Shown here in pieces: positions 24,424 to 46,556 of a DNA stretch of 64,000 nucleotides. The stretch is from an uncultured Phycisphaerales bacterium (GTDB lineage Bacteria; Planctomycetota; Phycisphaerae; WQYP01): positions 1 through 64,000 of the forward strand of contig CAIMWO010000031.1 in the NCBI GenBank assembly GCA_903845195.1, read 5' to 3'. The notes under the pieces are model-generated. The model ran no database searches. It was given only the letters and a program-made list of their open reading frames with translations, and was not told where the DNA came from. The first letter of the stretch is position 1, and each line of letters begins with the position of its first letter. The translations under genes were made by a program, and so were the position numbers.

Positions 24424-24584
24424 GGTGTTTATCGTAAGGGCGGAGCGGCTTCGCGTACAACGAGCCGAGGAATAGGACGCGTGACGTAAAGCTGCAGGGA
24501 GACGCTGGTGAGCACGCCCGCCAAGACTTACGACTTGGTTGCGGACGAGATGCTGGTGTTGGCTCCAGGTGTCCGCCACACGGG

Positions 24585-25204: not shown

Positions 25205-26119
25205 CTAAGCACGGCCCAGAAAGCAGTGCTGACGATGCCATTGCACGTATTCGCGCCCGGGCCATTGGTCTCGGCTCTTCGGCAGGCGAAGATGGCATCC
25301 CTCATATGCAGCCAGCTCCCGGCCATCAGGACTCATCTCAGCGAAGTGGCCGCGCGCAACTAGTACACGCAGATCTTCGTCAATCGTCCATAGTCCTTCA
25401 TCGAAGAGCCAGTGGGCGTTCTTGCAGAGCGCAATCCCATTACGTGGGTCATTGTTGCGTGAATCCGCAAACTGGTGAATGTGGGCAGCATCCACGATAC
25501 TTCCGGCATCGATCGTCAACAGGCGATACCCGGTGAGTGCACAGGTGTAGTCGTATTTGGCGACGACTTGCAGGCGGAATCTCGCCTCTCGGCCTGGGGC
25601 GAGGGCCAGCGGATCGTCCACCTGGGCGTCATGCTCTATCTGCTCGTCGTCCGGTACATCGCGGCCAATGATGGCGTAGAGTGCCGCCCGCTCACCTGAA
25701 GTGAAATACTTGGCAATCAGCAGGCGCCGGGCGCGATCTCGGGCCACCGGATCAGCCATGAGCGCCCGGAAAGCCGGAGAGAAGGCGGAGAACACACTCA
25801 AACGACTGTCTGGCGAGGGCGTTCCGTCGGCCAATAGAGGGTGCCATATGCCATCTCCAGCAAGATGGTGGAATGGCAAACGAATATCGGGCCGTTGGCG
25901 GCGTCTATGCGCAACCACGGTCCAGTACGTGCAGAATCGAAACGCCAGCTCTGGAGTCAGCGGTAGTGGGTCAGGAATATACTGTTCCTCCGCCATGTCG
26001 AGGATGGTTAGTAGCAGCAGTGGCTTGTGGGGGGCAGGGTCGCCCGAAGCTCGATCGACGCGCAGGTTGGCCAGTGATCCGAGCAGATCTGAGAAGAACT
26101 CTCTCGGGGAAGTCGCCAT
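25205..26119 (-). CDS. HNH restriction endonuclease, possible PT-DNA reader
   Basis: This encodes a 304-residue nuclease. The C-terminal HNH fold is clear: a CALTG turn, DAAHIHQFADSRNNDPRNG (about 209-227), and CKNAHWLFDEG, giving the ordered His-Asn-His metal site found in McrA-type enzymes. The N-terminal 110 residues (HKPLLLLTILD ... PFHHLAGDGIWHPL) resemble the sulfur-binding domain of ScoMcrA-like enzymes, which read phosphorothioated DNA; that is recognition of a pattern and not a proven match. A type IV restriction role is plausible. A GAGG site precedes the ATG. It is the last gene of a three-gene operon, 11 bases after the receiver protein. Confidence 0.75.
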   Translation of the reverse strand: MATSPREFFSDLLGSLANLRVDRASGDPAPHKPLLLLTILDMAEEQYIPDPLPLTPELAFRFCTYWTVVAHRRRQRPDIRLPFHHLAGDGIWHPLLADGTPSPDSRLSVFSAFSPAFRALMADPVARDRARRLLIAKYFTSGERAALYAIIGRDVPDDEQIEHDAQVDDPLALAPGREARFRLQVVAKYDYTCALTGYRLLTIDAGSIVDAAHIHQFADSRNNDPRNGIALCKNAHWLFDEGLWTIDEDLRVLVARGHFAEMSPDGRELAAYEGCHLRLPKSRDQWPGREYVQWHRQHCFLGRA

Positions 26120-26130
26120 GGTGCCTCAAC

Positions 26131-28158
26131 CTAGAGCGCGTCTGACGGGATAGGGGGACTTCCGCCCGCTAACGGCGGCGGATTGCCTCGTGACGACGCA
26201 TTGCTGCCATTGTCGTCACAAGGGCGCGAAGCAGCAGGAGGGGTCGAGGTGCCAATCGCCTCTCTTGGTGGCTCTTCGTCCTTTTCTGCTGTGGGTGTTT
26301 CCGTCTTGGGGGCAGGCGGGATAAGCCCCTCGGGTTTCACATACGTCCCGCTGAACCAAGTGAGATAGATAGTCTCGCGATCTTCTCTTATGCCGACCTT
26401 GAATTCCTTCAGCTTGGCGCGAAATTCTGGTTTCGAAAGATAGCACCTAAGCTCCCCGAGTACTCGAGGAGGCAAAATGTTATTTGTTTCGCTGCAAAAC
26501 AGCTTTTCGCTGCCGACGCCAAGCGCCCAAAGTGGTCCATCGTCAGCCTTGGCGTTGTCGTTCTCCATCACATCACACACGCCAAGCTTGTCGAACGTTT
26601 TTTTGTCGGGAACATGATAAAGCTCGGCCTTTCGCATTCGAAGATGCGACGAAACATCGTCAGTACCTACCGAGAGTAGGTCCGCTGCGTACCTCATCTG
26701 TACCTTCTCGGCTTCCTGAGTGCGCAGACGACCCCACTTCTTAAAGTATCTGGCGCCTGGAGCGAGTTCCATCCAGGGCACCAAAGAAGGGGTCTGAAGG
26801 CTCCAACAAAGCCAGCTCAATTTCCCTTCTGGGTCTAGCATAAGAGGCGTGGCGACCAGGTTACCAGCCGATGAAGGGGGGCGAGTGGTTTGGATTTTGC
26901 CATTTAATAGAAGGATTGTGCATACTTTGGGAGCAATCTTTCCATCTTCATGACGGAGTTCAAGATCGCATTCTGGCGTAATGACGAGGAAGTAGTTCTC
27001 CCCATCCCCCAGGAGCGTGTAGATGTCACCGAACCCGATAGGCGAGTTGAGAGCATAGTTACTTTGATCATAGAGAAGTTTGGAATGTATTCGGTGCAGG
27101 GAATGGCTCCCGAGTCCTTCAGGGACCATCATCTGTGCCTTCTCAAGTGTATCCATAAACTGTTCGAGACTAGCCCGTACGTCGCCGTCGTTACGCAGTT
27201 CGGCACTCAGTAGCCCGCTGAAGAGCCCCAGCAAGTGGTCCGCCAGTTTTGCGCGTTGCTGCGTGTCTCCTCCGGTAAGTCGTGCGGCAAATGGGTTAAA
27301 GTCCGCCGGAAGCAGTCCGCAGGTTTCGGATGCAACGCGGTCAACAGTCTTCCTCGCCGCTTTCCGCAACCCGCGTACGTGATCGAAATACGCTTGGCCC
27401 ATCGGTAGAGAAGTGACCAAATCGTACAAAAGGAACATGAATTGACTGCGTGCATCTAGTGTAGACTTTTCCATGTACCGAAAATTGGAGCGGAGATAAC
27501 CACCTCCTTCGCGTGCAACCATCTCCCACTGCGCTTCGCCAGGCCGGTCGGCAACGCTGCGAGACATTAGGATGGCTGCCGGGGGCTCGCCATTCTCTCG
27601 TGCCCACACTTGCCCAATTAGTTCCCCAAGAAGTGCCGACGCGTCTTTGCCAGCCGTATCCGGCTGCTCAGGTTGAAGACGGTAGTCTATGAAGTATAAC
27701 TTCTCGTCTCTGGGGACAGTGGCGTCCAGTCGCCAATGTCGCAATGGAGTGATGTTGAGTTCCCGCAGGTAACCTTCTAGCAGACGTAACGCAGGCTCAG
27801 CCCGGGGCGGGGCCGTCATAAGGGATACTGCTGTCACGTCCTTCGATAGCACTACCAGCCGTTCAATCTCTCGAACTGCCAAGTCGTCGGGATATGCATC
27901 CACATTGCCCGTCGTTTTCGCGACTTCTGCAACGATCTTCTCGTACAGTGAAGGCGCTTCGGCCCGCGCGTATTCGACTAACAGTACCCAATCGGTTGGG
28001 CTGACGCCGGGAGCAAAGGCGTCATCAATGATAACCGCCCGTGTTATCTTGAGGTCGTCTAGGCCAGCCGCTACTAGTTCTTTCACATCCTTTTGTTTCG
28101 GGGCCATTTCCCGATCGCGCTTTGCGGGCACTGCGTCGTCACTTCCAGATGTAGTCAT
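26131..28158 (-). CDS. receiver-domain protein with unknown output
   Basis: This encodes a 675-residue protein. Residues 38-235 look like a receiver domain with an insertion: acidic pair D45-D46 in AVIIDDAF, candidate phospho-acceptor D158 in YFIDYRL, S199 in ILMSRS and conserved Lys K231 in YMEKS. That is the full receiver quartet, spaced more widely than usual. The remaining 440 residues do not contain a DNA-binding domain that I recognise. They include a helical stretch and a beta segment (FGDIYTLLGDGENYFLVITP, then ECDL), so output may be protein-protein or catalytic. The tail is Pro/Glu/Thr-rich. The GGAG site precedes the ATG. The kinase-like ATPase gene lies 70 bases upstream and the HNH gene 11 bases downstream, implying a phosphorelay that controls a nuclease. 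Confidence 0.65.
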   Translation of the reverse strand: MTTSGSDDAVPAKRDREMAPKQKDVKELVAAGLDDLKITRAVIIDDAFAPGVSPTDWVLLVEYARAEAPSLYEKIVAEVAKTTGNVDAYPDDLAVREIERLVVLSKDVTAVSLMTAPPRAEPALRLLEGYLRELNITPLRHWRLDATVPRDEKLYFIDYRLQPEQPDTAGKDASALLGELIGQVWARENGEPPAAILMSRSVADRPGEAQWEMVAREGGGYLRSNFRYMEKSTLDARSQFMFLLYDLVTSLPMGQAYFDHVRGLRKAARKTVDRVASETCGLLPADFNPFAARLTGGDTQQRAKLADHLLGLFSGLLSAELRNDGDVRASLEQFMDTLEKAQMMVPEGLGSHSLHRIHSKLLYDQSNYALNSPIGFGDIYTLLGDGENYFLVITPECDLELRHEDGKIAPKVCTILLLNGKIQTTRPPSSAGNLVATPLMLDPEGKLSWLCWSLQTPSLVPWMELAPGARYFKKWGRLRTQEAEKVQMRYAADLLSVGTDDVSSHLRMRKAELYHVPDKKTFDKLGVCDVMENDNAKADDGPLWALGVGSEKLFCSETNNILPPRVLGELRCYLSKPEFRAKLKEFKVGIREDRETIYLTWFSGTYVKPEGLIPPAPKTETPTAEKDEEPPREAIGTSTPPAASRPCDDNGSNASSRGNPPPLAGGSPPIPSDAL

Positions 28159-28228
28159 ATGCTTATCTCCAGTCTCTATTCCGCCCGCACTCGACCTTCG
28201 GCATTGCTGGCCTCGTGTAGGATGTTGT

Positions 28229-30685
28229 CTACTTCACCGAGCACTCGCCAAAATCCAACACAAAGGTTGGGAGCCGTTTCCACTTATTGAACTCTCTGCC
28301 ATTCAGCGACAGCTTGATCCGATTGAACTCGCAGAGTTCTTTGCTCAAGTACAGTCCCAAGCCACGTCCGCCAGATCGCCGTGAGTGGAATCGTTCGAAA
28401 ATCCACTCTGCATCGGCGGGCGATATTCCAACACCAGTGTCACTAAAAGTTACGATCCGGGCTCGAGCGTCCAGGAACACTCGAATCTCTGAGGGAAGGG
28501 CGGTTACGGGGTGCTTTGAGCGCGTATCATCGAGCCAGTAGATTGAATTGCGGAAGAGATTATCGAAGACTTGCCGCACATGTCCTTCAACAGCATCCAC
28601 CTGGAATGTTGCGCCCTCTATTGCCTTAGGTGCGATCACCAGAGTGATCTTGTGCCTCTCGAGCCTTGCTCGGTAGTAGTCGCCCACGTGCTCCAGCAGG
28701 GAGCGGAGGTCAAACTCGCTTCTTCGTCGGCGATGTTTCGCCGGGCCGGGTTTGATGGCTGAGATTTGAGTTCGAAGCGACTTGAAAACCGCACGCAGAT
28801 GCGAAAGTGTTCGCCCCAACTTCGATTCGCGCCCAGACTGGGTGACCGCGTCGTCTGTATCGCTAATTGCGTGGTCGATACTGGCTTCAAGATCGTGTGC
28901 GAAATTCTCTGCCGCCATGCCTGTGGCAGCCAGTTCTAGCACTTCAACCCGATTCTCCTCCCTGTCCTCAAGGGCTTTTTGAGCGGCGTCGATTACCAGG
29001 CGAACGGCAGCCACCGAGTCCCCTAGGGATTTTCGGGCAGCTGCTATCTCGTGGTCGTCTTCGTCGGCTGCCGCCTCGATCAACTGCTCTACAGCGGCCT
29101 CGAACGCTTCTTGTGCTTCCATCGAACGTTCGTGAAGCGCTGCGAGATCCGCTTCGCTCGGGCGGGTCTGTGTGTCAAGTTCCATTACAAACGTACGAAT
29201 GAGGCTCTTCATGAAAATATAGAAAGTCTTGGCGGCCTCGTTATCCATAAGCCCTTCGCGGTTAGCCTGATCGCGAAGTTGGGGATTATCGGCTCGCGAG
29301 ATCCTCACGCATCCTACGACTTGTATGCGGTTCACCCGAAAACCTTGCCCTCGCAAAGCGGTAGTGTCGAGGTCAAGCCAGTCATCAAAAGTCTTATTGA
29401 TCTCTCGCACGACCGCTTCGCCCTTAGCTGCTGGTAAGGAGATCTGACCGTAGGGCATTACTCGCACCCCATCTCGGTAGATCTTCAGGCCTCCCGACCA
29501 TTCGTCGAGCCACTCTTTCAATTCCTGCCGTGTGGCGAGGCCAGGGACGGCAGCAAGGCGTCTACGGTTATAGTGATATAATTCGAACTGAAACGGACCG
29601 ATTTCAGCTAGTGCACGATCAGTGAGCCCGCCAAAATCCGCCGACGAGAACTCGCGGCGCGACTCCTTGCGTATGCCTGACTCAGTGGTAAACCAAAAGT
29701 CGACATGAACTGAGAACCTTTTCGATGCATCAATCTCAACGCGGCCCTTCATGCCGTTCTGCGATGCTTTCAAGAATCCCTGCCCAATAAGGGGAATCGT
29801 GATTTCTTGTCCATTCCACACTAAGCGTACGCGGCGGAGGCGTTCCTCGCGAAAAGGGTCGATGAATTTCGAAAGAAACCTTTGGCCCACCTCGACAGTT
29901 TTCTGATAGTCCCAGCGTGCTCTTAGGCTCGAAATGACCACAATCGTTCCTGCATCATCAGGGCTCCCATCCCATGAGAAAGAGGACATGTCGACGGGGA
30001 TCTCCTGCGCCGGCACTATTGATTCGGGGCCAAACAGCCGCCAGTCAATCGTAAGTGCGTGCGCACAACTATCTCGGGCCTGGTGAGTGCGTATCTTGGC
30101 ATCGTCTCCGAGACGCATCATTGAGAGTCTTCCGATCCCTTTTTCACCAGTCGGTACAGTGTCACCTTCGTACTCCTCGCCAGATTCCACGTGACGTTTG
30201 TGCTGGGAATAACGGTGCGTGGTACCAATGGTCAGGAAATATGTCTCGAGCTCCTGTTTGCTCATTCCACGGCCATGGTCTGTGATCGTGATCGAGTTTA
30301 CTGCACCGATCGCACGGACAAGCTCGTCGGCCGTGCCGCTTTCGGGTAATAGCTGATCAAAACATGCCAGAGTGGCATCAGTGAACAGGGCTTCCTCCCT
30401 GCCTTCAACTCTCAACTGGCGAAGTACATTAAGTGCTTGCGATTTTTTAAACTGTCCGTTCGCGGCCGCCGCAAGCGGACGAACGCGTTCTTGAGCAGTC
30501 TTGACAGCGGCAACTTCAGCCCGATAGGTCACTTCAACGTCAACTACAGCTGGTTTTTTGGACTTGGGTGTCGCATCAAAACCGTTCTTAACGAGCTCAT
30601 AGACGGCTACGTCGTCAGAACTGATCAGTTCCGCGCCCAAGTGTTCCAGAACCCTCGCCGCAAAATTAAAATAGGCCTTTGCCAT
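28229..30685 (-). CDS. double-GHKL sensor-kinase-like ATPase
   Basis: This encodes an 818-residue cytosolic protein with two ATP-binding GHKL modules. The N-terminal one is of Hsp90/MORC type: N-box YELVKNGFDA near residue 30, DHGRGMS, and GEKGIGRLS. The C-terminal one is a histidine-kinase module: N-box DNLFRNSIYW, G1 box FSDTGVGIS and G2 box GGRGLGLYLSK. A candidate phospho-histidine lies between them in NFAHDLE near 598. Modelled on known families, the N-terminal ATPase may be a nucleic-acid or clamp sensor and the C-terminal part phosphorylates the downstream receiver protein. There are no membrane segments, so the signal is intracellular. A GGAG site lies five bases before the ATG. It is first in the operon. 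Confidence 0.8.
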   Translation of the reverse strand: MAKAYFNFAARVLEHLGAELISSDDVAVYELVKNGFDATPKSKKPAVVDVEVTYRAEVAAVKTAQERVRPLAAAANGQFKKSQALNVLRQLRVEGREEALFTDATLACFDQLLPESGTADELVRAIGAVNSITITDHGRGMSKQELETYFLTIGTTHRYSQHKRHVESGEEYEGDTVPTGEKGIGRLSMMRLGDDAKIRTHQARDSCAHALTIDWRLFGPESIVPAQEIPVDMSSFSWDGSPDDAGTIVVISSLRARWDYQKTVEVGQRFLSKFIDPFREERLRRVRLVWNGQEITIPLIGQGFLKASQNGMKGRVEIDASKRFSVHVDFWFTTESGIRKESRREFSSADFGGLTDRALAEIGPFQFELYHYNRRRLAAVPGLATRQELKEWLDEWSGGLKIYRDGVRVMPYGQISLPAAKGEAVVREINKTFDDWLDLDTTALRGQGFRVNRIQVVGCVRISRADNPQLRDQANREGLMDNEAAKTFYIFMKSLIRTFVMELDTQTRPSEADLAALHERSMEAQEAFEAAVEQLIEAAADEDDHEIAAARKSLGDSVAAVRLVIDAAQKALEDREENRVEVLELAATGMAAENFAHDLEASIDHAISDTDDAVTQSGRESKLGRTLSHLRAVFKSLRTQISAIKPGPAKHRRRRSEFDLRSLLEHVGDYYRARLERHKITLVIAPKAIEGATFQVDAVEGHVRQVFDNLFRNSIYWLDDTRSKHPVTALPSEIRVFLDARARIVTFSDTGVGISPADAEWIFERFHSRRSGGRGLGLYLSKELCEFNRIKLSLNGREFNKWKRLPTFVLDFGECSVK

Positions 30686-31396: not shown

Positions 31397-32257
31397 ATGT
31401 CGTTAGATACTCAGCAATTCGGGATCAGTCGATTCTGGCTTTCGGTCGCACTGGCGGAGCTCCCCTCCCGGCCGGACATATTCGGCAGCTCGCAGCTCAA
31501 AGCTGCCAGGAAGTGCTTCCTTGCCGGCGGTAATCAGCTAAAGGCCATACGGAGCTGGTTGACGAACGCCGACATCGTGAAGTCTGCGGGGAGGCAAGTG
31601 CTGCTGACGAAACTGGGGGAACTCGTCTCGACCAAGGACCGGCGTGGGCGCGATCCTTGGACTTGGTGGTTGTTCCACATTCATCTCTGCGCAAACCGCG
31701 AAGCCTACCCCTATTGCACTTTCTTCACGCAGCTCGACGCAGATGGTGGCGGCTGGATGACCATTGATGAGGTGATTGAGTTTCTCACGAAGACGCTCAA
31801 GGAGTCAGCCGTCGCCGTCGAACGCGGTTCCGTGGAAAGCTATTTTCGCGGCGTCGAACTAGCCTTTCGACCTGGGGCATCATTGTACGGTCTTGGCTTG
31901 ATCGAATGGCGCGAGGACAATGCTGGCGGCCAGCGACTTCGTCGTCGTCTGGCAAAGCCACCCCTCTTTGTGGTTGCATATGCGGCTCTCGCTTTCCAAC
32001 AGGCGTTTTTCGAGAACCAAGTCACGATTGAAATGAGGGTCCTGCTACAGAAAGGGCTCGCGCGGGCACTCGGTCTTCGCGATGCCGATGTACGGGAGAC
32101 ACTGTCGCACCTTAACCAGGATGCGGGGCTTTCTCGCATTATGCAATATAAACAGGTGGCCAATTTGGACTCCATGCAGTTCGTGGAACCAAGTGAGCTT
32201 GTACTACGGAGGCTCGCAGCTCAAGCGTATGCGCAGGGGGAGATACAGTGGCAGTAG
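31397..32257 (+). CDS. divergent DUF4007-like protein
   Basis: This encodes a 286-residue protein whose layout parallels the clear DUF4007 protein at 45615-46556. It has a helical block with GGNQLKAIRSWL in the place of GVGKNMVRSIRHW. An LTKLGELV segment follows, then DPWTWWLFHIHLCA, where the family has DPYLEDVGSLWALHW, and a FFTQ segment. DUF4007 proteins occur in BREX-like and phosphorothioation-linked loci; the role is unknown but probably DNA or partner binding. The start has GGGAGAAG just upstream. It is first in a five-gene operon and overlaps the next gene by 10 bases. Confidence 0.6.
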   Translation: MSLDTQQFGISRFWLSVALAELPSRPDIFGSSQLKAARKCFLAGGNQLKAIRSWLTNADIVKSAGRQVLLTKLGELVSTKDRRGRDPWTWWLFHIHLCANREAYPYCTFFTQLDADGGGWMTIDEVIEFLTKTLKESAVAVERGSVESYFRGVELAFRPGASLYGLGLIEWREDNAGGQRLRRRLAKPPLFVVAYAALAFQQAFFENQVTIEMRVLLQKGLARALGLRDADVRETLSHLNQDAGLSRIMQYKQVANLDSMQFVEPSELVLRRLAAQAYAQGEIQWQ

Positions 32258-32736
32258 ACTCTTTCGCAGAAAGTCTGCAGCGACTTCTGTACACGCAGCT
32301 CGCACCTCAACTTCGCTATCGCGCCCTGCTCATACAGTGCACTGACCTAGGCGTTCTCCGAGTCATCGAGGAAAAGGTTTCGGGCGCTCTTTTGGCAGAC
32401 GGCAGGATCTTCACCGTTGTCCAAGCGCAGACGCAGTTCGACGCGATTGGAGCCAAACCATGTCGACAGCTCATCGATGATCTTGAGAAACTGTGGACGA
32501 AGCAGCACCTTCTGCTGACTGGCCCACTCCATTTTCTAGATTTTTGGCCCCCGCCCGCACGAAGCGCTTTCTGGTCGCATTTTGCGACAGTCACAAGTAG
32601 TCCTGGAATTATCATCTTTGATGTCCCTCGCGACATCGACACAGAAGATATTTTTAAGGTAATGGGAAAGATACCTGGCACCGATGCCCGTTACCTCAAG
32701 TCCCGGCTAGCTGCAACACAGGATGGGCTTGTATGA
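32248..32736 (+). CDS. small conserved-position BREX-operon protein
   Basis: This encodes a 162-residue protein starting with GTG behind a GGGGGAGA site. Alternating hydrophobic strands (RYRALLIQC, RIFTVVQAQ, QHLLLTGPLHFLDF, GIIIFDVPR) suggest an alpha/beta nucleotide-binding-like fold. No Walker A motif (GxxxxGKS) is present. Its small size and place directly before the BrxC-type ATPase recall BrxF of type 3 BREX systems, but the sequence resemblance is too weak to name it. It overlaps the ATPase gene by four bases (ATGA), so translation is coupled. Confidence 0.55.
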   Translation: MAVDSFAESLQRLLYTQLAPQLRYRALLIQCTDLGVLRVIEEKVSGALLADGRIFTVVQAQTQFDAIGAKPCRQLIDDLEKLWTKQHLLLTGPLHFLDFWPPPARSAFWSHFATVTSSPGIIIFDVPRDIDTEDIFKVMGKIPGTDARYLKSRLAATQDGLV

Positions 32737-35700
32737 GTACCCTAAGCGAAATCGTTCAAGTGTCCCACGACGAACGCCCGTTCGTGGAGTTCGAGTCCTC
32801 ATTGGACAACGACCAGGTGGTTTCTGGCTACATACCCGTCAAGTCCACACTTGACGTGTTGGAGTTTCTAGCTGACTCGCTCGCCATGCACAGCCCAAGT
32901 GGACGAGCCGTTATCTGCTTCGGGGCATACGGGTCCGGTAAGAGCCGACTCTGCGCTGTCCTCGCGCGTCTCTTCCGTGATGGAATGGATGCGCCAGCAC
33001 TCCTCCCGGTATGGAAACGTTTGCGGGCTCGTGGCCAGCTCAGTAGGCTGGAGTCCTTCCGTAAGAGCTTGCTTCCAGCGGGCCGGAATTGGCGGCCTTG
33101 GCTCGTAGTGCCGATGTATGCTGATGCTGGCGGTGGAACGATTAGCGCGGCCATGATCAGTGCCCTAACCAAGGCAGTTCGTCGGGCGGGACTCGATGAC
33201 CGTGTACTCGGAACGACAATTTTTCAGGAGGCAGGCAGACGTCTCCGCGAGATTCTTGCATCTGGCAAGCAGTATGTCCCTGCGCCAGGCTCAGTACACG
33301 CAACGGGTGAACAGCTGATAAGGGCAATCGAACAACAGCTTGATGAGACCGCGCTCGCAGAGTTCTGTGCGTTTCACAAAATCGCGACCTTGGGCGTGGA
33401 CTTTAGAGACCTGATCCGCTCGACAGGCGGCGTGGCGGTTGAGGCGCATGACGTCTTCAACCAGGTTTCGCAAAACATACAGCAACATGGTTACGAAGGT
33501 ATATTGGTCCTCTGGGATGAGATGGGATTCGCGATTGAACAACTCCTAACTGGCGCCAAGAATGCTTCCCGGAACCTCGGGCAGGAAGCGATGTCGCTAC
33601 AGAATTTTGTGGAGCGGACATGCGCGACAAATGAATTAGGAAAGCGAGTGATCTTCTTGGGTTTTACTCACGTGGGTATCACTGAGTACGCGACACGTGC
33701 AAACTTGGGGGAGCAAGATCAGAACAGGCTCGCCACCGTTTCGGACCGCTTTAGACAGCCAAATATCAATATTCGATTGAGTGTAACGGAAACCGAGGGC
33801 TACCATTTGGTCGCTGGTATGATGCGGCGTACCCCGGATGGGGATCGCATCCTTCAGAACCCAGCCCCAAAACTCCAGCGTATCGCCGACAGAATGCCGC
33901 GGTTTTCCAAGAACTGGGAGTCCATCCCTCCAGAAGTCTGTTACAACGATATTGTTGCGCCCTGTTACCCGCTTCATCCGACAACAGTGATGGTGCTCCT
34001 ACTTCTTTCTGACCAGATCGCGCAAGCAAACCGAACTACCTTCTACTACCTCCAAAATCGAGAGGAGGGTGGTCTGTCCCGGCTCCTTACTGAGCGCACC
34101 CTGCCGGCGACCGCCGATATTGGCGGTTCGGAATTGGTTCGCATCAATGATCTGTTCCACTTCTTTGAGCAGCCCTTGCGGAGCCGTGAGGCACGCCTCA
34201 TGGAACAGTTCGATGACGCTCTTGTCCGAATTCCCGATCCGACAGTGCTAGAGCTCGCAGTCCTGCGCACCGTCCTAATCTTAGGTGTGGCACGAGTTCA
34301 GCCAGCAACCACTGCATTTCTCGGCTTCGCGATGTGTGACGCCCAGCCGAACGAGCCTGGGGCGCAAGTCCTCCACGATGCGCTAAAACGTTTGAGTGAT
34401 GCTGGGTCGCTGTGGCACAATGCTGCAACGGAAGTGTGGGGATTTGTGGGGACTGGAACGGTAAGAACTGAGATCGAGCGTGAAATCGACGACGAAAGAG
34501 ATCTTATCACGACCGCTTCTTCCACAGTTCTCTTCCGCAATAATTCCGAAATCCATCGTGAAATTGCAGATTTCCTGGGCGACTTTGACTTGGACCCTAG
34601 TCCCTCGGGGATTATCCGGCGTGTTTCGGTCAAGGTGCTTGATGTTGCGCGAGGGGCCGATGCGATCGAAGAAGTTAACCCGGCAAGTGTGGGCGAAGGG
34701 GCTGACTGGCGATCCGCGTTGATCTACCTCGTTATTCCGGAGTCACCACAGGTCCTTCAGTATTGGCGAGAACGTGCTTCGGAGTGCACAGAGCCGACGG
34801 TGTACTTCGTGTTTCCACAGGGACCAGTCGAAATTAGTCCAGCAGTTCGCGACCTAATCGCAGTACGACGGGTGTTGAGCCGAAAAGACCAAGCCGATCA
34901 TGCCTTCAGGGTGCTGGAGGCAAAGCTCACTCGGCTTCGACAGGACCTTCGCCGCGAATTCGCGCAGCACTTCGGAAATGCTGGACTTAGATCTGGTACT
35001 GAGGTGGTGCAAGCCGGACCTGATCGTAAACTGGTCTCGGTCGAGTCTTGGAATGACCTACTCCCAAGCATCGCAGCTGCGCTGGAAACTGCATTCAATC
35101 AGCAGATACGTGTACGGTGTGGAACGTACAACGAGTGGCAAAGTCGAGCCGCTTGGGGTGCGATCGAGCATGTCGTAGAGAACATCTTGGATTCTGAAGA
35201 TAATCCAACACTCCGGGATGAGTACCTAGGGTTCGCCGAGAAATCACAAGAGGCCGCGATCGTCGATGGGGTATTGGTCGAGAACGGCTTCTACCGACAC
35301 AACGCTCTTACGGATAAGTGGGAGTTCACTCCTATAAAAGACCTAGCGGCCGCAGTACAGGAGGTCGCAGGGCATCTCCAGAGTGGCACAAGTGATAAGG
35401 AGTTTGAGAAACTCTACTCCACGCTTGTAGACCCGCCCTTCGGTATTCCTAACGGAGTCGTCCCCATCTTGGTTGCATTGGTTTTGCGATCAGATACTGC
35501 AAGAATCGGCGTCTACTACCGTAGTGCTCGACAGCTCGAGAGGGTCAAGAGCCGGCTGGCTGAAGCGATCGTTGACATGGCGAAGCAGCCTACGCGGTAC
35601 GTGACCCGATTCAACAAGCTATCGCCGAAGCAAAGGATCGCTTTTAGAGCCATCGGACCTGAGATGGGCGTCGCTCCCCCGGAGAAAGATGATCGACGGG

Positions 35701-36632
35701 ATAGCTTTGACAGCTTCTGCGGGCGAGTTCGTGATGAGTTGATCGCCTGGGCAGGACCACTTCCCGAAGACGTTGTAAACGGGACCGAGTTCTCTGAGGC
35801 CCAGCGGAAATTTCTGAAGCTGCTTCGCGGTGGCGTGCCTCCTCAATCTCCAGTGCTTGCTGAAGCAATCTTGGCTGTGATTGCAGAAGACAAAGGCACG
35901 CACGCTGAACTGGACTCCGCCGGATCAGAAACGCGTGACTTTCCGGAGGCCGTCAGGGCCTGGCGAGAACTGCGAGAACGGATTGATCGCTATATCGATG
36001 GCGTGAAAGCATCGGTGCAGCGACAGATCACGGAGTTGGCAGGTGGTCGCATGGACGGCGACCAGACTACGAAACAGCGATTCGTATCAGCGCTTAAGCC
36101 GCTCCAGGATCTTGGCCTAGCGGGAAACCCCATTTCGAAAATAGTGGAAAAGCTCAATGAGGCCAGTAGCACAAATGATGTCGCGCTCGAAGTCGCGTCC
36201 GCAATCGTTCAGAAAGACATCTCTAAACTTACTTCCGAAGACATGGGAGTGGCTACAGGGATGCTGAAGATGGTTGGTCTCATGAATGAGCTCAACCGCA
36301 AATGCTCAGTCATACTTCCGTCGGGCGACAGGCGAGAGTTGCCCATCGTTCCAGAATCAAGACCTTTGGATGAGATTCGGCAATCTCTTACCCATTGGCG
36401 AGCCGAATATGATCTTTCTGATGATCAGCTTGCGAGCGTCATCGTGAGGCTGATCTACGTTCAGCCGTCGCCGCCCGTGTCAACTGGGGATCACGATGCG
36501 GACGCTGTTGGGAGTGTGGAGCCAGCAAAGGACTCCCTGGAGCGGATTGTCGTTTCCTCATCTGACGTGAATGAGGTGAAATCCGTTGAGGATCCTGAAA
36601 CACCCGTTGGCGCCGGTGAAGGCGAGGCGTGA
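32733..36632 (+). CDS. brxC: BrxC/PglY-type P-loop ATPase
   Basis: This encodes a 1299-residue ATPase. Walker A GAYGSGKSRLCAVLARLF lies near residue 64 and a Walker B strand ILVLWDEMGF near 259. A conserved C-terminal half includes YGSPF-like ATPase sensor regions and a long helical part, and the tail is acidic. Length (about 1200-1300) and context match the BrxC/PglY proteins of BREX and Pgl systems, which are needed for both host protection and phage exclusion. It is co-translated with the small protein before it and with PglZ after it (GTGA overlap). A second, paralogous ATPase is encoded at 42106-45615 on the opposite strand; the two share the N-terminal ATPase layout but differ in the C-terminal region. 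Confidence 0.8.
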   Translation: MSTLSEIVQVSHDERPFVEFESSLDNDQVVSGYIPVKSTLDVLEFLADSLAMHSPSGRAVICFGAYGSGKSRLCAVLARLFRDGMDAPALLPVWKRLRARGQLSRLESFRKSLLPAGRNWRPWLVVPMYADAGGGTISAAMISALTKAVRRAGLDDRVLGTTIFQEAGRRLREILASGKQYVPAPGSVHATGEQLIRAIEQQLDETALAEFCAFHKIATLGVDFRDLIRSTGGVAVEAHDVFNQVSQNIQQHGYEGILVLWDEMGFAIEQLLTGAKNASRNLGQEAMSLQNFVERTCATNELGKRVIFLGFTHVGITEYATRANLGEQDQNRLATVSDRFRQPNINIRLSVTETEGYHLVAGMMRRTPDGDRILQNPAPKLQRIADRMPRFSKNWESIPPEVCYNDIVAPCYPLHPTTVMVLLLLSDQIAQANRTTFYYLQNREEGGLSRLLTERTLPATADIGGSELVRINDLFHFFEQPLRSREARLMEQFDDALVRIPDPTVLELAVLRTVLILGVARVQPATTAFLGFAMCDAQPNEPGAQVLHDALKRLSDAGSLWHNAATEVWGFVGTGTVRTEIEREIDDERDLITTASSTVLFRNNSEIHREIADFLGDFDLDPSPSGIIRRVSVKVLDVARGADAIEEVNPASVGEGADWRSALIYLVIPESPQVLQYWRERASECTEPTVYFVFPQGPVEISPAVRDLIAVRRVLSRKDQADHAFRVLEAKLTRLRQDLRREFAQHFGNAGLRSGTEVVQAGPDRKLVSVESWNDLLPSIAAALETAFNQQIRVRCGTYNEWQSRAAWGAIEHVVENILDSEDNPTLRDEYLGFAEKSQEAAIVDGVLVENGFYRHNALTDKWEFTPIKDLAAAVQEVAGHLQSGTSDKEFEKLYSTLVDPPFGIPNGVVPILVALVLRSDTARIGVYYRSARQLERVKSRLAEAIVDMAKQPTRYVTRFNKLSPKQRIAFRAIGPEMGVAPPEKDDRRDSFDSFCGRVRDELIAWAGPLPEDVVNGTEFSEAQRKFLKLLRGGVPPQSPVLAEAILAVIAEDKGTHAELDSAGSETRDFPEAVRAWRELRERIDRYIDGVKASVQRQITELAGGRMDGDQTTKQRFVSALKPLQDLGLAGNPISKIVEKLNEASSTNDVALEVASAIVQKDISKLTSEDMGVATGMLKMVGLMNELNRKCSVILPSGDRRELPIVPESRPLDEIRQSLTHWRAEYDLSDDQLASVIVRLIYVQPSPPVSTGDHDADAVGSVEPAKDSLERIVVSSSDVNEVKSVEDPETPVGAGEGEA

Positions 36633-38998
36633 ACGTGCAGACTGAAACCCGCGTTACTCTGATCTTCGACCCGTTCGACATCTACGCTTCGGGCGGCGTG
36701 AGAGTCACCGAACTCGAGGATGAGGAAAGGGCCTTTCGAGAGATTGACTGCCGGTTGCAGACGCAATCTCAAGACGAGATGGGTGAGCCTCTTACTGTGG
36801 TTGTGGGACAATCGGCAATTCAACACTTCAGAACCTATCGCGGCATTAGAGGCGTTCGGGTGGAGGACTTCACGCCGCTTCGGCGCGTCCACGAGATTGT
36901 GGGGCAGGCGCCCCCCGAATGGCTCACAGACGAAAACGTATATCAATGGGGTATGTTAAGCCTTAGGCCACCGGAACCTCCCTTCTTGGGGAGTTGGGAA
37001 GCAACTGTTGCCGACTGGCTGGCCCCCAATGTCGCCGGGTCGAAGTCATTGGATAGTTGGATACGTGCGCTATCGCAGTCGCCAAGCATTCCAGGGATCA
37101 TGAAGTGCGAGCCTGTCATTCGATGGTTTGTGCAACAGTTCGGGAGCTTGGGCCGTACATTTGGGTTGTCGGCCGACGAGATTGATGAGCTGTCCGACAT
37201 GCTCACGTCGGCAGAGTCGCCCTCGGCATTTGCGCGCACATGGGCTCGAAGGGCTGCGCTAGCACCACTCTTGGACTCGGCAGTTAGCAATCCTCTACAT
37301 AGCCCCAACATAGACGTGCTATCGCCGAAGATGCGGTTCCTGATGAAGAGACTGCCCATCCTCTTTCCATTGCCAACAATCATCAGCGGAGACGTGTGCC
37401 GTCTGTTCCGCGATGCTGTTCGGAAGGCTCGAATCCGCGACGCAGGGCAATTGGAAGCCGCTATTCTGCGCCTCAATGCCGTTTGGGAGGGAATCACGGA
37501 AGAGATTCGTGACTGGCTAGATGTTTCGCCTCGTGGGCTATCGCAAAAGGCTGCAGAGCATCTTGAGAAGTTGCCTGGATTCGCCGACTCGCCTGAACTG
37601 CAGGAAATAGTGGGAGAGCATCGTCCGCCAGAGGGGGCCCCCCGGTGGGAGGGTTTGAATGACAACTTTGACGGCTGGGTTTCTTCGTACGCGCGTTGGA
37701 TCAGAAACGCATTCAATCGCCGTGAACTACCTTCAATAGAAGATGATCCATCCACCGGCTTTTCGCGGTGGCTCAAGGACAACTATACCGTAAGCTTTAG
37801 TCATCCAGAGCGTAGCTATTTGACCGTTGCTGGCACGATTCGATCGGCACTTCGTGAGGGTCGAACGGTTCTTCTAGTGCTCATCGATGCGATGGCCGTG
37901 CATGTCCTTGATCACTTCCGTGTAGCGATGTCAAAGGCGCTTGGCGAGGAGCCAACACGTGTGACTTATGTGTTTGCACCGATACCAACCGTCACCGAAG
38001 TATGTAAGGCCTCGATCGCGTCGGGCATATTTCCTGACCAGTGCACCGGAGATCTCCGCGCCGATGTGGCCAAGGCATACGGCCTTCAAGACCAGCAGCT
38101 GCAGGTCGCCGCAAACTGGGCGGATGCACAACGGTCGCGAATCCTACAGGAGACGAAGCTGCTTGTTTATCGTGACAACAGAGTTGATGATCAGCTCGCG
38201 ATGGCAGGCAATTATCGAGAACTTGTCCATGAGTGCCGTAACATCGCGGATCGCGTGTCTTCGCTATTGCGACGCCTAGTCGATGATTGCCGCTGTATAA
38301 ACGGGAGCACCCCCCTCGGAGTTATTCCCGCCGATCATGGTTTCACCTACGGCCCCGGAGCTCTAGGGGGATCTGGCCACGAGGGGTCAGACCAGCGGCA
38401 CTTCTATCGATGCCAGGCTCTCAGCTCAACCGAACGGCGTCCGCCAGCTGACGAACACCTCACTTTTCTTGATAAGAATGTGTTTCGTACACGAAACGAC
38501 TATGTGGCCGCTCGAAGTCGCTCGTGGGGCTCAGATACATTGAGCGGATGGGTGATGTCACATGGAGGATTGTTGCCCGAGGAAGTCATAATCCCCCTCG
38601 TGGAATGGTACGGCAAGGACGCCCAGATACCTTGGCCTACGATTGACATTGTTGGTGATGCCTATCGTGAGCGTGGCGAGTGGCTACTGAAGACTAAATT
38701 GCGCAATCTTCACGCAGTGCCCGTCCCGGGAGGCGAGATTACCATCGGAGTGCGCGGAGCAATGAAGCGAGTCGGCATCCAATTCTCACGACTGCAGCCC
38801 GGGCAGACGGTAGTGTTGGATCTCAAGCTACCAGAAGCCAATCCTGAGATGATCGAGGAGTTGACCGTCGAGACCACAACCGAGATGCATTGGCGTGATT
38901 CACAACCTGTGCAGCTAGACCGCAACTACTCCGTGAGTGCCGCTCGACAGCTGGCCGAGCGCACTACCAGCCAAGATGCATTTGAGTCGATGTTCTGA
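36629..38998 (+). CDS. pglZ: PglZ-domain protein
   Basis: This encodes a 789-residue protein with the alkaline-phosphatase-superfamily core of PglZ: VLLVLIDAMAVHVLDHF near 417 (metal-binding Asp), VFAPIPTVTEVCKASI shortly after with the nucleophile-position Thr, and VIPADHGFTYGPG near 568 with the Asp-His metal pair. PglZ is the signature protein of BREX systems. The start is GTG inside the preceding stop (GTGA), implying coupled translation. The first 400 residues are helical and the last 120 are beta-rich. A GAGGAG site between its stop and the next start shows the operon continuing. Confidence 0.88.
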   Translation: MNVQTETRVTLIFDPFDIYASGGVRVTELEDEERAFREIDCRLQTQSQDEMGEPLTVVVGQSAIQHFRTYRGIRGVRVEDFTPLRRVHEIVGQAPPEWLTDENVYQWGMLSLRPPEPPFLGSWEATVADWLAPNVAGSKSLDSWIRALSQSPSIPGIMKCEPVIRWFVQQFGSLGRTFGLSADEIDELSDMLTSAESPSAFARTWARRAALAPLLDSAVSNPLHSPNIDVLSPKMRFLMKRLPILFPLPTIISGDVCRLFRDAVRKARIRDAGQLEAAILRLNAVWEGITEEIRDWLDVSPRGLSQKAAEHLEKLPGFADSPELQEIVGEHRPPEGAPRWEGLNDNFDGWVSSYARWIRNAFNRRELPSIEDDPSTGFSRWLKDNYTVSFSHPERSYLTVAGTIRSALREGRTVLLVLIDAMAVHVLDHFRVAMSKALGEEPTRVTYVFAPIPTVTEVCKASIASGIFPDQCTGDLRADVAKAYGLQDQQLQVAANWADAQRSRILQETKLLVYRDNRVDDQLAMAGNYRELVHECRNIADRVSSLLRRLVDDCRCINGSTPLGVIPADHGFTYGPGALGGSGHEGSDQRHFYRCQALSSTERRPPADEHLTFLDKNVFRTRNDYVAARSRSWGSDTLSGWVMSHGGLLPEEVIIPLVEWYGKDAQIPWPTIDIVGDAYRERGEWLLKTKLRNLHAVPVPGGEITIGVRGAMKRVGIQFSRLQPGQTVVLDLKLPEANPEMIEELTVETTTEMHWRDSQPVQLDRNYSVSAARQLAERTTSQDAFESMF

Positions 38999-39012
38999 GG
39001 AGTGAATACTGT

Positions 39013-41226
39013 ATGGCTGCGAGCGCATTTGACAACAAGATTCGTGAAGTATTTGGAGACTTCGCGATCGATAAGGGGCTACTTCGGCGCCTGGGCGTCT
39101 CTGGCGATGATCGGCACGTTCCATCTTACGTGATGGACTGGATCGTGACCTACTCGTCAAAAGCGTCACCGACGACTACCTCCCTCCAGCAGGAGGTGAC
39201 GCAATTCGTTCAACGGCATCTCCCCCCAAAGGGAGAGAAGGAGCGGGTGAAGTTCCGTCTAGGCCAAGGAGAGGTCATCACCTTACTTGATGCGGTGTCG
39301 GTTTCGGTAAAGCTGGGAGCAGAGGTGGAGTACTCTGCAGCGATCCCTTGCCTAGACGAGACCAAGGCCTTCATTGACGCATCAGTAATTGAGCAGAACG
39401 AGGGGCTCTTGCAGGGAAGTAGTTGGGGCGCCGTCAAACTGAAATATGACAGTGATGAAACACGCGGAGGTATTCGCGTCGTCGACTTCAAACCGATGCA
39501 GGCTGGTAGAGTATCAATCGAAGCCTACTTCGAGTGCCGTAAGGCATTCACAGTTGAGGAGTGGCTGGATTTGATCGTGCGAACGATGGGATACGAGCCG
39601 ACTGCCTATTCAGAGTCGGAGAAATTGTGGCTGATTTGTCGGCTGATTCCAATCGTGCACAATCGCGTAAACATGATGGAACTTGCTCCACCGGGATCGG
39701 GTAAGTCCTATGTGTTCAACAACATTAGCCGGCACGTCTGGCTGACTGCAGCAGAGATTAGTCCCGCGGTCCTATTCTACAACCGAGCGCGCCGCACGCC
39801 CGGGTTGCTTACGCGTTACGACCTGGTAGTCCTTGATGAGGCTCAGTCCATCCGGTTCACCAACGGGGCAGATATTCAGGCCCAATTGAAGGGGTACCTT
39901 GAACAAGGCGTTTACTCGCGAGGTGATGTCACCGCGACCGCCGAGTGTGGGTTGATGCTCCTAGCCAACATTGAGCTACAGGGAGACGGTGAGAGCACCT
40001 ACTACAATGGCAAGCCAAAGTTCCGACCACGTGATCGAGACTACATACGACGTTTGTCTCCTGTGTTTCTGGAATCACCACTGCTCGACCGGTTTCACGG
40101 CATCCTACCAGGATGGGAGATCCCGCCATTTCAGACAGACCAACAGGCAACGGGGCTCGGACTGAAGGCGGATTACTTTGCAGAGGTCTGCCACGCATTA
40201 CGCGGGGCGGCGCACATTTCCCAAGCTATTCGGGCAAAGCTCAGGTTGAGCGGTGGGAAACGGGACTGTACTGCAGTTGAGCGTCTCGCAAGTGGGCTTG
40301 CCAAACTCCTGCTGATCGATCCTGACCATCCCCGATTCAAGGAATTGGTACTTCGACCGGCCGAGGAAATGCGACGCCTCGCTCGGACTCAGCTGAATGC
40401 GCTGGATCCAGAGGGCTATCCTGCCAGCCTGCAGATACTCCATCTCGGACAGGAGGGAAGCAAAGCAAGCGTTGGGCGGGTAGGTCGATATGATCTTCTC
40501 GAAGAGATTGGGCATGGAGGGATGGCCCGAGTGTACCGTGCATTAGACACAAAGACCGGAACGGTAGTTGCGCTGAAGCGCGTGGAAAGTGCAGGGGCTC
40601 CGGTTAATGCAGCTGCTATCTCTCGGGAGATTGCGATTTATCAGCGACTCAAGGAGGTAGCCAATCGCAACGTTCTGGCCGTGAAGGACGTGTTCCATGA
40701 GGCTGGAGTGTACGCCCTTATCACTGAATTCGCAGATGGTGGAAGCCTTTGGGACATATGCAACCCAGAGGGCGAAGATTCCCCTCGCTCACTTGACGAA
40801 CGCACGGTAAAGCACATCGCGATAGAACTGCTGAATGGTCTGACGGCACTTCACGAACATGGCATTGTGCACCGTGACATCAAGCCTCAAAACGTACTTC
40901 GCTGCGACGACACCTGGAAAATAGCCGACTTCGGAATTAGTAAGTTCTTGGATACTCCGGTTACTGGTTATACCTTCCAAGGAGCACACACCGCGCCATG
41001 GGCACCGCCTGAGCAAATAGAGGGCGCGCAAGCGCATCCTTCTGCCGATGTCTATGCGTGCGGGCGAGTTTTGTGTTTCCTTCTAACAGGGAGCACAAAG
41101 CGGGAGGCGCTTTTGTCGGTTGCCTCTCACTGGCAAAAACTACTGCAGGACTGCGTTAACCTAAACGCCGAGAAGCGGCCATCCGCAAAGGCCCTAATGC
41201 AGTCCATCCAAGAAGTTCAATGCTAA
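39013..41226 (+). CDS. brxL: BrxL AAA+ protein fused to Ser/Thr kinase
   Basis: This encodes a 737-residue fusion. Residues 1 to about 470 follow the BrxL layout: VPSYVMDWIV, then FTVEEWLDLIVRTMGYEP, RLIPIVHNRVNMMEL and Walker A APPGSGKSYVF near 226, Walker B VVLDEAQS near 275 and a Gly-Arg-Gly segment. BrxL is a DNA-binding AAA+ (Lon-related) effector of BREX types 1 and 4. The usual C-terminal Lon-like protease part is replaced by a complete Hanks-type kinase, residues 488-737: IGHGGMARVY, ALKRV lysine, HRDIKPQN near 619, DFGISK near 638 and a WAPPEQ activation-loop end. All catalytic residues are present. This fusion is new to me. It has a strong site before the ATG and ends 22 bases from the convergent PAPS-reductase-like gene. 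Confidence 0.85.
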   Translation: MAASAFDNKIREVFGDFAIDKGLLRRLGVSGDDRHVPSYVMDWIVTYSSKASPTTTSLQQEVTQFVQRHLPPKGEKERVKFRLGQGEVITLLDAVSVSVKLGAEVEYSAAIPCLDETKAFIDASVIEQNEGLLQGSSWGAVKLKYDSDETRGGIRVVDFKPMQAGRVSIEAYFECRKAFTVEEWLDLIVRTMGYEPTAYSESEKLWLICRLIPIVHNRVNMMELAPPGSGKSYVFNNISRHVWLTAAEISPAVLFYNRARRTPGLLTRYDLVVLDEAQSIRFTNGADIQAQLKGYLEQGVYSRGDVTATAECGLMLLANIELQGDGESTYYNGKPKFRPRDRDYIRRLSPVFLESPLLDRFHGILPGWEIPPFQTDQQATGLGLKADYFAEVCHALRGAAHISQAIRAKLRLSGGKRDCTAVERLASGLAKLLLIDPDHPRFKELVLRPAEEMRRLARTQLNALDPEGYPASLQILHLGQEGSKASVGRVGRYDLLEEIGHGGMARVYRALDTKTGTVVALKRVESAGAPVNAAAISREIAIYQRLKEVANRNVLAVKDVFHEAGVYALITEFADGGSLWDICNPEGEDSPRSLDERTVKHIAIELLNGLTALHEHGIVHRDIKPQNVLRCDDTWKIADFGISKFLDTPVTGYTFQGAHTAPWAPPEQIEGAQAHPSADVYACGRVLCFLLTGSTKREALLSVASHWQKLLQDCVNLNAEKRPSAKALMQSIQEVQC

Positions 41227-41248: not shown

Positions 41249-42046
41249 CTAAGTGTGGCAGAATGAGCAAGGCAAGTTATCGTCGTCCTCGTCTTGTCCC
41301 AGAATCTCTAGCAGCGGCCTGTTAGGCTTGTCCTTCTTGGCCGCTAGCAAAGCGTCTTGCTGTTTTGCCTTAATCTCTGCGACGCGCTCTGGCCGCGCCA
41401 GTTCCTCGAGTGACTCCCGTTCAGTCCAGGTATAACGTTCACCGTTCACAGGATTGGTCTTTTCGTATTGTTTGGCCTTTTCATACAAGTCCGGATGTCG
41501 CTCGAGCAGCCCGACCCACTCGTTCTTACGCTGATAGAAGCAGAAGAAGCAGCCCGAACGTGTCCGCCAATCGTAGTAGGTCGGGAAGCCGATACCGCTC
41601 TCGTCCAAAATGCGATGTACGTCCTGGAGTGTCATTCCATCATCCCGGAATGGGTAGACAGGATGAATGTTGGGCTTTGAGGTGATGTAGCCCCCCCGAT
41701 CTTCGTCTGCCCGGATGCCCACATACATCATAACTTCATCAGTCCCGACGAACTTCTCAAAGGGCTTGATCTTGAGGACCTTGGTGCACCACCGCATCCT
41801 CGACGAGGGGAGGTACCCCCCATAAACCTTGAGCCAATGGTCAAAACCGCGATCATCGCGAAGGCGTACAATCTTCTTCCCCAGAAATGCCTCGAGTCGC
41901 CCTAGGTACTCGTAAGTTTCAGCAAGCTCCTTATCGGTATCACAGAACACATATTCCATGTCAGAGATCTTATCTCGCATATATATAGCGAGCGCCGTGC
42001 TGTCCTTTCCCCCGGAGAGCGACAGAATGTGACGGATGTTGGGCAT
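41249..42046 (-). CDS. PAPS-reductase/DndC-like enzyme
   Basis: This encodes a 265-residue adenine-nucleotide alpha-hydrolase fold protein. The PP-loop SGGKDSTALAIYM opens at residue 10, VFCDTDKEL follows, and SRMRWCTKVLKIKPF carries the conserved Cys-Thr-x-x-x-Lys. A CxxC pair (SGCFFCFYQRKNEW) and a terminal CSFCHT could bind a cluster or zinc. Relatives include DndC, which activates sulfur transfer for DNA phosphorothioation, and the PAPS-reductase-domain protein (BrxP) of type 4 BREX. Here no DndD or DndE gene is visible, so it may act with the neighbouring ATPases. It is last of a three-gene reverse operon, 59 bases after the ATPase. Confidence 0.8.
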   Translation of the reverse strand: MPNIRHILSLSGGKDSTALAIYMRDKISDMEYVFCDTDKELAETYEYLGRLEAFLGKKIVRLRDDRGFDHWLKVYGGYLPSSRMRWCTKVLKIKPFEKFVGTDEVMMYVGIRADEDRGGYITSKPNIHPVYPFRDDGMTLQDVHRILDESGIGFPTYYDWRTRSGCFFCFYQRKNEWVGLLERHPDLYEKAKQYEKTNPVNGERYTWTERESLEELARPERVAEIKAKQQDALLAAKKDKPNRPLLEILGQDEDDDNLPCSFCHT

Positions 42047-42105
42047 AAGAGTCCTTTCGTTTGCAGCACCAGGTATATTGTAGCGACAGCCTCATCGCGG
42101 CCACA

Positions 42106-45615: not shown

Positions 45616-46556
45616 TAGCCTTTCACTCCCTTGGTTACGTAGTGGTGTGCAAGCATGTCCAAGGGCCGCACAGTCGCTCGTTTGTATAGCTGTCGCAATC
45701 CGGCAGTGACGTCGTAAGTGATCGCCTTGTCAGTGATGCGTTCGATTGCCTCTAAGTAATTGGTTATCACATTTTCGCTCAATTTAAACACTCGTCCTGG
45801 ACTTCCCTGCCGGTAAGCGACATGCTCGAATGTCATCGTCGGTTGCGAGGAATATGACGTCGTCCAAAACTGCAGCAAGGCAAACGTGAACATTGCTGGC
45901 GACAGTGATGGGTGCTCTCCACGCGCAAATGAATAGAACTTGCCTTCATCGCTATACTCTTGCAGAAGCCCGAGTTCCGTAAATGGGCAGTCAAGCGATT
46001 CTTCCGGTATTGTGTCGATTGCAGTTCCGGAAACATACGTGCGAATGAAGCAATCCACATCACGAGAAAGCGAGCTCTCCGCGACCTGCTTCCACCCGTG
46101 CTGCTCCGTGAACTTCCGCAGACCCGTTATAAATTTTGCCTTGGTGAATTCGAGGTCAGGGAAAAAGTTGAATGCCCAAAGCCACGTTGTCGGACTAGTC
46201 GCGGGCTTTGAGGCCAACATCCAATGTAATGCCCAAAGACTGCCAACGTCTTCAAGATACGGATCTTTTCCGCGTCCCCCCATCAAAAGCCTGCCTAGTT
46301 CAGACGGGACAAGGCCTTTCACTCGCGAACTATCGGTTGCAGACTCTTCCAGCACCCCAGTTGCCAAGGCCCAGTGGCGGATCGAACGGACCATGTTTTT
46401 GCCCACGCCGAGCGTGATCAAGGCATCATCACGTGCAAACAAATGAGGATCCTCGGAAACGGCATCGATGGCCTTCTTTAGCCAACCGTATCGCAGCGTG
46501 AAGCTTTCGTGGCCTGCGAACGAAGGAGTATCTGCGTCGTGCATCAGCATCGGCAT
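45615..46556 (-). CDS. DUF4007 family protein
   Basis: This encodes a 313-residue protein with the family hallmarks: FAGHESFTLRYGWLKKAID at the start, ITLGVGKNMVRSIRHWALA (a helical motif often mistaken for a P-loop), DPYLEDVGSLWALHWMLA and FNFFPDLEFTKAKF. DUF4007 proteins appear beside PAPS-reductase and ATPase genes in defence loci. The initiation codon is one of three close ATGs (46556, 46550, 46544); no clear ribosome site separates them. It is first in the reverse operon. Its more divergent counterpart in the forward operon (31397-32257) indicates that a DUF4007-ATPase pair occurs twice here. Confidence 0.8.
   Translation of the reverse strand: MPMLMHDADTPSFAGHESFTLRYGWLKKAIDAVSEDPHLFARDDALITLGVGKNMVRSIRHWALATGVLEESATDSSRVKGLVPSELGRLLMGGRGKDPYLEDVGSLWALHWMLASKPATSPTTWLWAFNFFPDLEFTKAKFITGLRKFTEQHGWKQVAESSLSRDVDCFIRTYVSGTAIDTIPEESLDCPFTELGLLQEYSDEGKFYSFARGEHPSLSPAMFTFALLQFWTTSYSSQPTMTFEHVAYRQGSPGRVFKLSENVITNYLEAIERITDKAITYDVTAGLRQLYKRATVRPLDMLAHHYVTKGVKG

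Follow-up and report, generated by a model that had tools for sequence, protein, structure and literature searches.

The DNA considered here, which we call the window, is a stretch of 64,000 nucleotides from an uncultured Phycisphaerales bacterium (GenBank assembly GCA_903845195.1, contig CAIMWO010000031.1). Its minus strand carries the gene for a paraMORC-type histidine kinase, followed after 70 bases by the gene for a receiver protein and after a further 11 bases by the gene for an HNH nuclease (Table 1). An earlier note on this stretch had described these three genes and their spacing, and our analysis recovers the arrangement as given, including the HNH_2 domain of the nuclease. In addition to what the note reported, Pfam and PADLOC identify all three of the required ssp genes, sspB, sspC and sspD, upstream on the same strand (41249-46556); these genes serve the phosphorothioation of single-strand DNA. 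The HNH protein has a predicted sulfur-binding domain. The Ssp phosphorothioation system, missed in the note, is in our view the main functional partner of the kinase and receiver. Within Ssp anti-virus defence, this pair probably serves as a switch or an effector that had not been described.

Table 1. Features of the kinase-receiver locus and its surroundings; positions are those of the window unless another locus is named.
Feature	Position	Strand	Remarks
paraMORC-type histidine kinase gene	28229..30685	-	818 aa; open reading frame, Pfam, conservation in 55 homologs
Kinase, N-terminal HATPase_c_3 GHKL domain	about residues 20-260		followed by a linker
Kinase, DHp domain with H597	codon 28895-28897	-	
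Kinase, C-terminal HATPase_c domain	residues 700-792		
Response-regulator (receiver) protein gene	26131..28158	-	675 aa; receiver, helical linker, output domain of predicted MazF fold, disordered tail
Receiver, putative phospho-acceptor D158	codon 27685-27687	-	other signature residues D45/D46, S199, K231
Receiver protein, output-domain core	26659..27045 (residues 372-500)	-	located with a profile that excludes the window's copy; fold modelled on a homolog
SBD-HNH endonuclease gene	25205..26119	-	304 aa
HNH protein, predicted sulfur-binding domain	residues 16-103 (25811-26074)	-	H31, K32, P82
HNH protein, HNH_2 domain	residues 193-247 (25379-25543)	-	Pfam, 1e-12
sspB (DUF4007)	45615..46556	-	Pfam 3.3e-89; PADLOC SspB 5e-94
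sspC (ATPase)	42106..45615	-	PADLOC SspC 3e-304
sspD (PAPS-reductase-like sulfurtransferase)	41249..42046	-	PADLOC SspD 2.6e-115
BREX/type-4-like cluster between sspD and kinase	31397..41226	+	opposite strand to sspBCD and kinase
Recurring protein of about 800 aa	L007 18618-21143; L013 9282-11846; L020 12458-14908; L033 7421-9847		

The kinase, described in the note as a double-GHKL ATPase with an intact candidate phospho-histidine, matches both ATPase families in Pfam (HATPase_c_3, 1.6e-13; HATPase_c, 7.2e-17). Conservation was computed over 55 homologs, in all of which H597 and both ATP sites are invariant. The highest Kyte-Doolittle mean over 19 residues is 1.04, and from its sequence the protein is expected to lack a transmembrane segment and to be cytosolic. 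In the receiver, D158 and K231 are present in 55 of 55 homologs, D45 in 54 and D46 in 53, and the position of S199 is occupied by serine in 54 and threonine in one. The four signature residues mentioned in the note, and the conservation of D158 that the note had singled out as a check, are thus borne out. Since they are kept in proteins only 13-21% identical to the window copy, the signature is under strong constraint. When the window protein was left out of the profile, the search still recovered it at E = 1.4e-43 among 6,970 open reading frames. No Pfam family matched the receiver protein, a search with it at the level of the order returned nothing beyond the window's own genome, and, as the note had observed, no DNA-binding domain was found by Pfam or by further sequence searches. 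Across 57 loci that carry the pair, the receiver gene is the next gene after the kinase in 55, the remaining two lying at contig ends; the median gap is -4 bases, a 4-base overlap being usual. Pairwise distances of the two proteins correlate at 0.80, comparable to the 0.76 found for SspB and SspC. We infer phosphotransfer and its direction from these features, and a working His-Asp phosphorelay between kinase and receiver is very probable. As a lead to the signal that is sensed, the N-terminal GHKL part of the kinase matches the BbrUII/HgiDII restriction-enzyme family (1.8e-15).

Gene content and linkage to ssp genes were computed in two collections. A search of 72,556 plasmid records with the kinase as query (coverage of at least 50%) returned 16 records, every one of which belongs to the 95 that bear SspB (hypergeometric 2e-47); about four of the 16 are near-duplicates, in sets of four Acinetobacter baumannii and two Agrobacterium records. 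An alignment of the kinase was also run against about 85,000 species genomes, and the loci were read with our own profiles. High-scoring kinases had an adjoining receiver gene and almost always ssp genes nearby, whereas distant kinases had no ssp genes in the stretch examined and an adjoining regulator from another branch. Within that stretch, 51 of the 57 pair loci from plasmids and genomes carry ssp genes, 29 of them in the co-directional order sspB-sspC-sspD-kinase-receiver; the pair sits between sspC and sspD in three loci (L010, L041 and L061). Among the six others, two are short contigs (L029, L042), two carry SspF/G-type genes (L019, L037) and two (L027, L054) showed no ssp genes in the stretch examined. 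Clade structure, computed from a tree of 93 kinases, places all 49 Ssp-linked kinases in a single clade of 55 members (SH-aLRT 99), with none among the 38 kinases outside it. This clade includes members from Pseudomonadota, Planctomycetota, Chloroflexota, Verrucomicrobiota and Acidobacteriota. We conclude that the pair is almost certainly part of Ssp systems. In the reverse direction it is found in a minority of ssp loci, namely 16 of the 95 SspB plasmid records and three of 11 DUF4007 (SspB) genomes in a sample of one phylum, two of these 11 loci being cut by contig ends.

Three aspects of gene content were counted in favour of an effector role for the pair. SspFGH is missing from 39 of the 57 loci; SspE is absent from the listed families of 47 flanking proteins (25 of 132 families were listed, so that single cases could be missed); and seven loci are the most in which any further gene family adjoins the pair, for which reason a conserved third gene was rejected. 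A protein of about 800 residues does recur beside the pair (Table 1); it is 53-67% identical across loci, and the two copies scanned (L013, L020) have no Pfam match.

The note had offered either a nuclease or the C-terminal domain of the receiver protein as the output of the relay. The C-terminal half gave no match by sequence, and nothing was found when the full-length receiver was compared with PDB sequences. Its alignment follows the pattern GD...(V/I)(T/S)PxCDL...RLR...LGRVG, in which G377 and D398 are invariant and C397 is nearly so (ITPECDL). Because a search with a full-length structural model yielded no match for the output domain, we modelled the domain alone. The AlphaFold2 model obtained from the homolog L027 has a mean predicted local distance difference test score of 85, and each of the 50 top-ranking PDB structures that Foldseek matched to it is a MazF (E from 7e-4, with probability 1.00; TM-score on target 0.49-0.67). 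Against a library of viral models, the second- and third-best matches are PemK-like phage proteins. A profile made without the window protein places the domain in the window receiver with an independent E-value of 8.8e-14. Among the 6,970 open reading frames, the output-domain profile matches only receivers of the pair and 13 of the 38 regulators (L057-L096) adjoining distant paraMORC kinases linked to restriction-modification (R-M) or methylase genes (E <= 0.01); an iterated search reached the domain in 26 such regulator sequences. A MazF fold, computed here as a model, can be assigned to the output domain with good confidence, and the relay is likely to act through this C-terminal domain of the receiver protein itself. 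Taken as a whole, the reading given in the note is supported in part. No antitoxin gene was recognised with the pair.

The best overall explanation, and one to which we give as much credence as doubt, is that the pair forms a dedicated two-gene relay module of Ssp systems controlling a MazF-fold effector. In this scheme SspBCD and a cysteine desulfurase of the host would mark self DNA, and the cytosolic kinase would sense a DNA- or phage-related state through its MORC/MutL-like N-terminal GHKL domain. It would then autophosphorylate on H597 and pass the phosphate to D158, and phosphorylation of the receiver would alter the activity of the MazF-fold domain. We infer both this signal and the toxicity of the output: the domain would most likely be an effector that resembles a toxin, is directed at RNA and stops growth if marking fails or phage is present, although a toxin-like function falls a little short of an even call. 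In the window alone, the SBD-HNH nuclease, a predicted phosphorothioate reader, would have joined the operon as an accessory effector.

Several results weigh against this explanation. When the receiver of the window was modelled at full length, MazF was absent from the first 50 matches, which were to receiver folds; of the modelling that the note had suggested, it is the domain of L027, a homolog about 20% identical to the window protein, that gave the confident MazF-like structure. The catalytic Arg/Thr of MazF were not recovered, no conserved Arg being present in a hand alignment with MazF sequences, and an invariant Asp and a nearly invariant Cys lie near the place of the catalytic Arg, so that activity may differ or be absent. 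Since the catalytic Arg is not conserved, we do not file the receiver protein as a MazF toxin. Comparison by hhalign with three MazF sequences gave no signal, and with an alignment of ten MazF sequences a weak one (probability 7%, E 0.005; controls 0.05-0.3%). SspFGH is present in 18 of the 57 loci, and the pair is therefore not always the sole effector. Finally, distances of the kinase and receiver correlate weakly with those of the Ssp proteins (rho 0.26-0.31, compared with 0.61-0.76 within SspBCD). The module has therefore been swapped among Ssp loci: the two genes move as a unit from one such locus to another, yet stay with Ssp.

Some of these points would suit a regulatory role, in which the kinase senses the state of DNA or of phosphorothioation and the receiver tunes the expression or activity of SspBCD, and possibly also SspFGH or the HNH nuclease, for example by binding RNA or Ssp proteins. 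The 18 loci with SspFGH already have a restriction module, the catalytic Arg of MazF has no conserved counterpart, and the pair lies at the end of, or within, the modification operon. However, the lack of any DNA-binding domain found in the receiver protein, a predicted fold that belongs to a toxin family and the 39 loci without SspFGH make regulation alone of Ssp an unlikely account. Those 39 loci would also fit a receiver protein that is itself a restriction component, its MazF/CcdB-like domain working on DNA or a DNA enzyme so that unmarked DNA is attacked, in place of SspE or SspFGH, and the output domain is common to related kinase-regulator pairs linked to R-M genes. On the other hand, no nuclease motif was recognised in the receiver protein, and MazF relatives target RNA while CcdB targets gyrase. 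Even with the report that 83.9% of sspBCD loci lack both SspE and SspFGH (PMC8092258), we regard direct restriction by the receiver protein as improbable, and a relay-controlled MazF-fold effector remains our preferred reading.

The HNH gene requires separate consideration. The N-terminal part of its product is similar to the sulfur-binding domain SBDHga1 (PDB 8h0l; phmmer E = 3.7e-4), and over its full length the protein matches NF045808, the phosphorothioated DNA-binding restriction endonucleases (E = 3.4e-33). Its score is below the curated cutoff (115 against 180 bits), and it is therefore a relative rather than a certified member of that family. Residues H31, K32 and P82 fit the sulfur pocket of ScoMcrA, formed by H116, R117 (a position that most homologs fill with Lys) and P165 (PMC6224610), and the protein is predicted from these sequence features to read phosphorothioates. 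It resembles the SBD-HNH endonucleases of the ScoMcrA group in the full-length match and in the retained H, K and P of the pocket; unlike them, it has no SRA domain and lies beside Ssp rather than Dnd genes.

The proposal in the note that this nuclease is the output of the relay is favoured by the 11-base gap and common strand, by members of the HNH family near R-M-linked kinases (12 bases upstream in L067; also L058 and L071) and by HNH_2 being the best-represented nuclease near such regulators (PMC8011034). A survey of the neighbourhoods did not uphold it. The family follows the pair in the window only, one of 57 pair loci and none of the 56 others, and the receiver already has an output domain of its own; we therefore rejected the nuclease as the core output and consider that role very improbable. 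Because its relatives occur near those distant R-M-linked kinases of the superfamily, we view the HNH gene as an occasional accessory outside the conserved unit. It could just as well be an independent phosphorothioate-dependent restriction gene with no functional tie to the relay, which is compatible with any of the readings of the pair. Relatives of the gene are either solitary or, on the plasmids L126 and L130, neighbours of Dnd genes, and six other genomes in the same sample have it without SspB; against independence, its spacing is tight and co-directional, and it lies beside the only phosphorothioation genes found, DndD not being found in the window's genome. In two further loci (L017, 14498-17425; L027, 14262-16577), the receiver gene is directly followed by a single gene whose product combines an HNH domain of another kind with a STAND NTPase and TPR, a further accessory nuclease with the pair.

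The closest described relatives of the pair are the paraMORC-related HEF_HK (PF19191) and Response_reg_2 (PF19192) pairs found near C5-methylase and R-M genes (Bellieny-Rabelo et al. 2021, PMC8011034), for whose regulators no output domain was known; the text of that study does not mention phosphorothioation, Ssp or DUF4007. Common features are a soluble HATPase_c_3-DHp-HATPase_c kinase with a conserved His followed by Glu/Asp, an adjoining receiver with conserved DD/D/(S/T)/K, linkage to DNA-modification loci and an output domain present in several of the regulators. In contrast, the pair of the window belongs to a separate, Ssp-tied kinase clade and has an output domain with a modelled MazF-like fold. 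Both HATPase models match 13 of 13 kinase homologs, and HEF_HK matches eight of them (best 7.1e-5) and not the window kinase. Response_reg_2 matches one of 33 receiver homologs (0.0026) and not the window protein, and the receiver is for this reason not filed as a member. Kinase phylogeny and the shared output domain suggest that the pair is a divergent sister branch of the paraMORC two-component family. Our proposal would supply the missing output of that family, and His-Asp signalling would here control a toxin-fold enzyme instead of transcription. Whether a kinase with a MORC-like clamp and a MazF-fold effector is the cognate effector of many supposedly orphan Ssp systems, with the same logic in the R-M-linked paraMORC pairs, is a possibility that we entertain with some reservation. 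If true, it would define a general class of phosphorelay-controlled toxins guarding DNA modification.

Among known phosphorothioation systems, SspABCD-SspE and SspABCD-SspFGH (PMC8092258) share the sspBCD modification genes and have an extra module alongside. That module is a kinase and receiver here, rather than the SspE GTPase-nuclease or the Walker and FtsK proteins of SspFGH, with which the pair coexists in 18 loci. For some of the sspBCD loci that are reported to have no known restriction partner, the pair offers a concrete candidate. In A. baumannii global clone 2, a two-component system with a histidine kinase, located near orphan ssp genes, has been noted as a possible new variant (PMC12421847), and is probably the pair of our A. 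baumannii record L006, which faces sspBCD; that report names neither a family nor an output domain and gives no phyletic spread. The link of paraMORC-type pairs to Ssp had thus previously only been hinted at, for Acinetobacter. Term searches of two surveys, on Dnd and BREX systems (PMC10853773, PMC12839542), turned up no description of the pair. Nothing further was found that joins the paraMORC, Ssp and output-domain themes; most subscription papers lay outside the search, and novelty is provisional. MazF and PemK toxins resemble the receiver protein in the predicted fold of its C-terminal domain; unlike them, the receiver protein has no conserved catalytic Arg, carries the domain fused to a receiver and is accompanied by no recognised antitoxin gene. 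A PADLOC 2.0.0 search of the window gave no match to Detocs, whose presence in the library was unchecked. Detocs shares the logic of defence based on a histidine kinase, but has a TPR-type kinase, separate receiver-effector proteins and no link to phosphorothioation; the difference from Detocs noted earlier is supported by this architecture.

The kinase gene is separated from sspD by a cluster of BREX type-4-like genes (Table 1) encoding a DUF4007-like protein, a 162-residue open reading frame, an SspC/BrxC-like ATPase, a PglZ-like protein and a BrxL-Ser/Thr-kinase fusion. In the two nearest kinase relatives (L097, L110) the gap between sspD and the kinase gene is 12 and 30 bases, and the cluster was therefore probably inserted into an ancestral operon of sspBCD, kinase and receiver. 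Lying inside an Ssp locus and having no PAPS-reductase gene of its own, it may be part of an Ssp-BREX hybrid. A cysteine desulfurase gene is not present in the locus; elsewhere in the genome there are six class-V aminotransferases above cutoff, none of which could be equated with IscS or SspA. An 877-residue open reading frame (21946-24579, minus strand) that lies downstream of the HNH gene matches type I specificity subunits and MAD5 weakly and over a short stretch. Farther along are a large defence-like protein (7373-12874, minus strand; PADLOC PDC-S37/Hhe-like), a Fic protein (16012-17508, minus strand) and a tyrosine integrase (19489-20625, plus strand), and these three genes give the window the look of a defence island.

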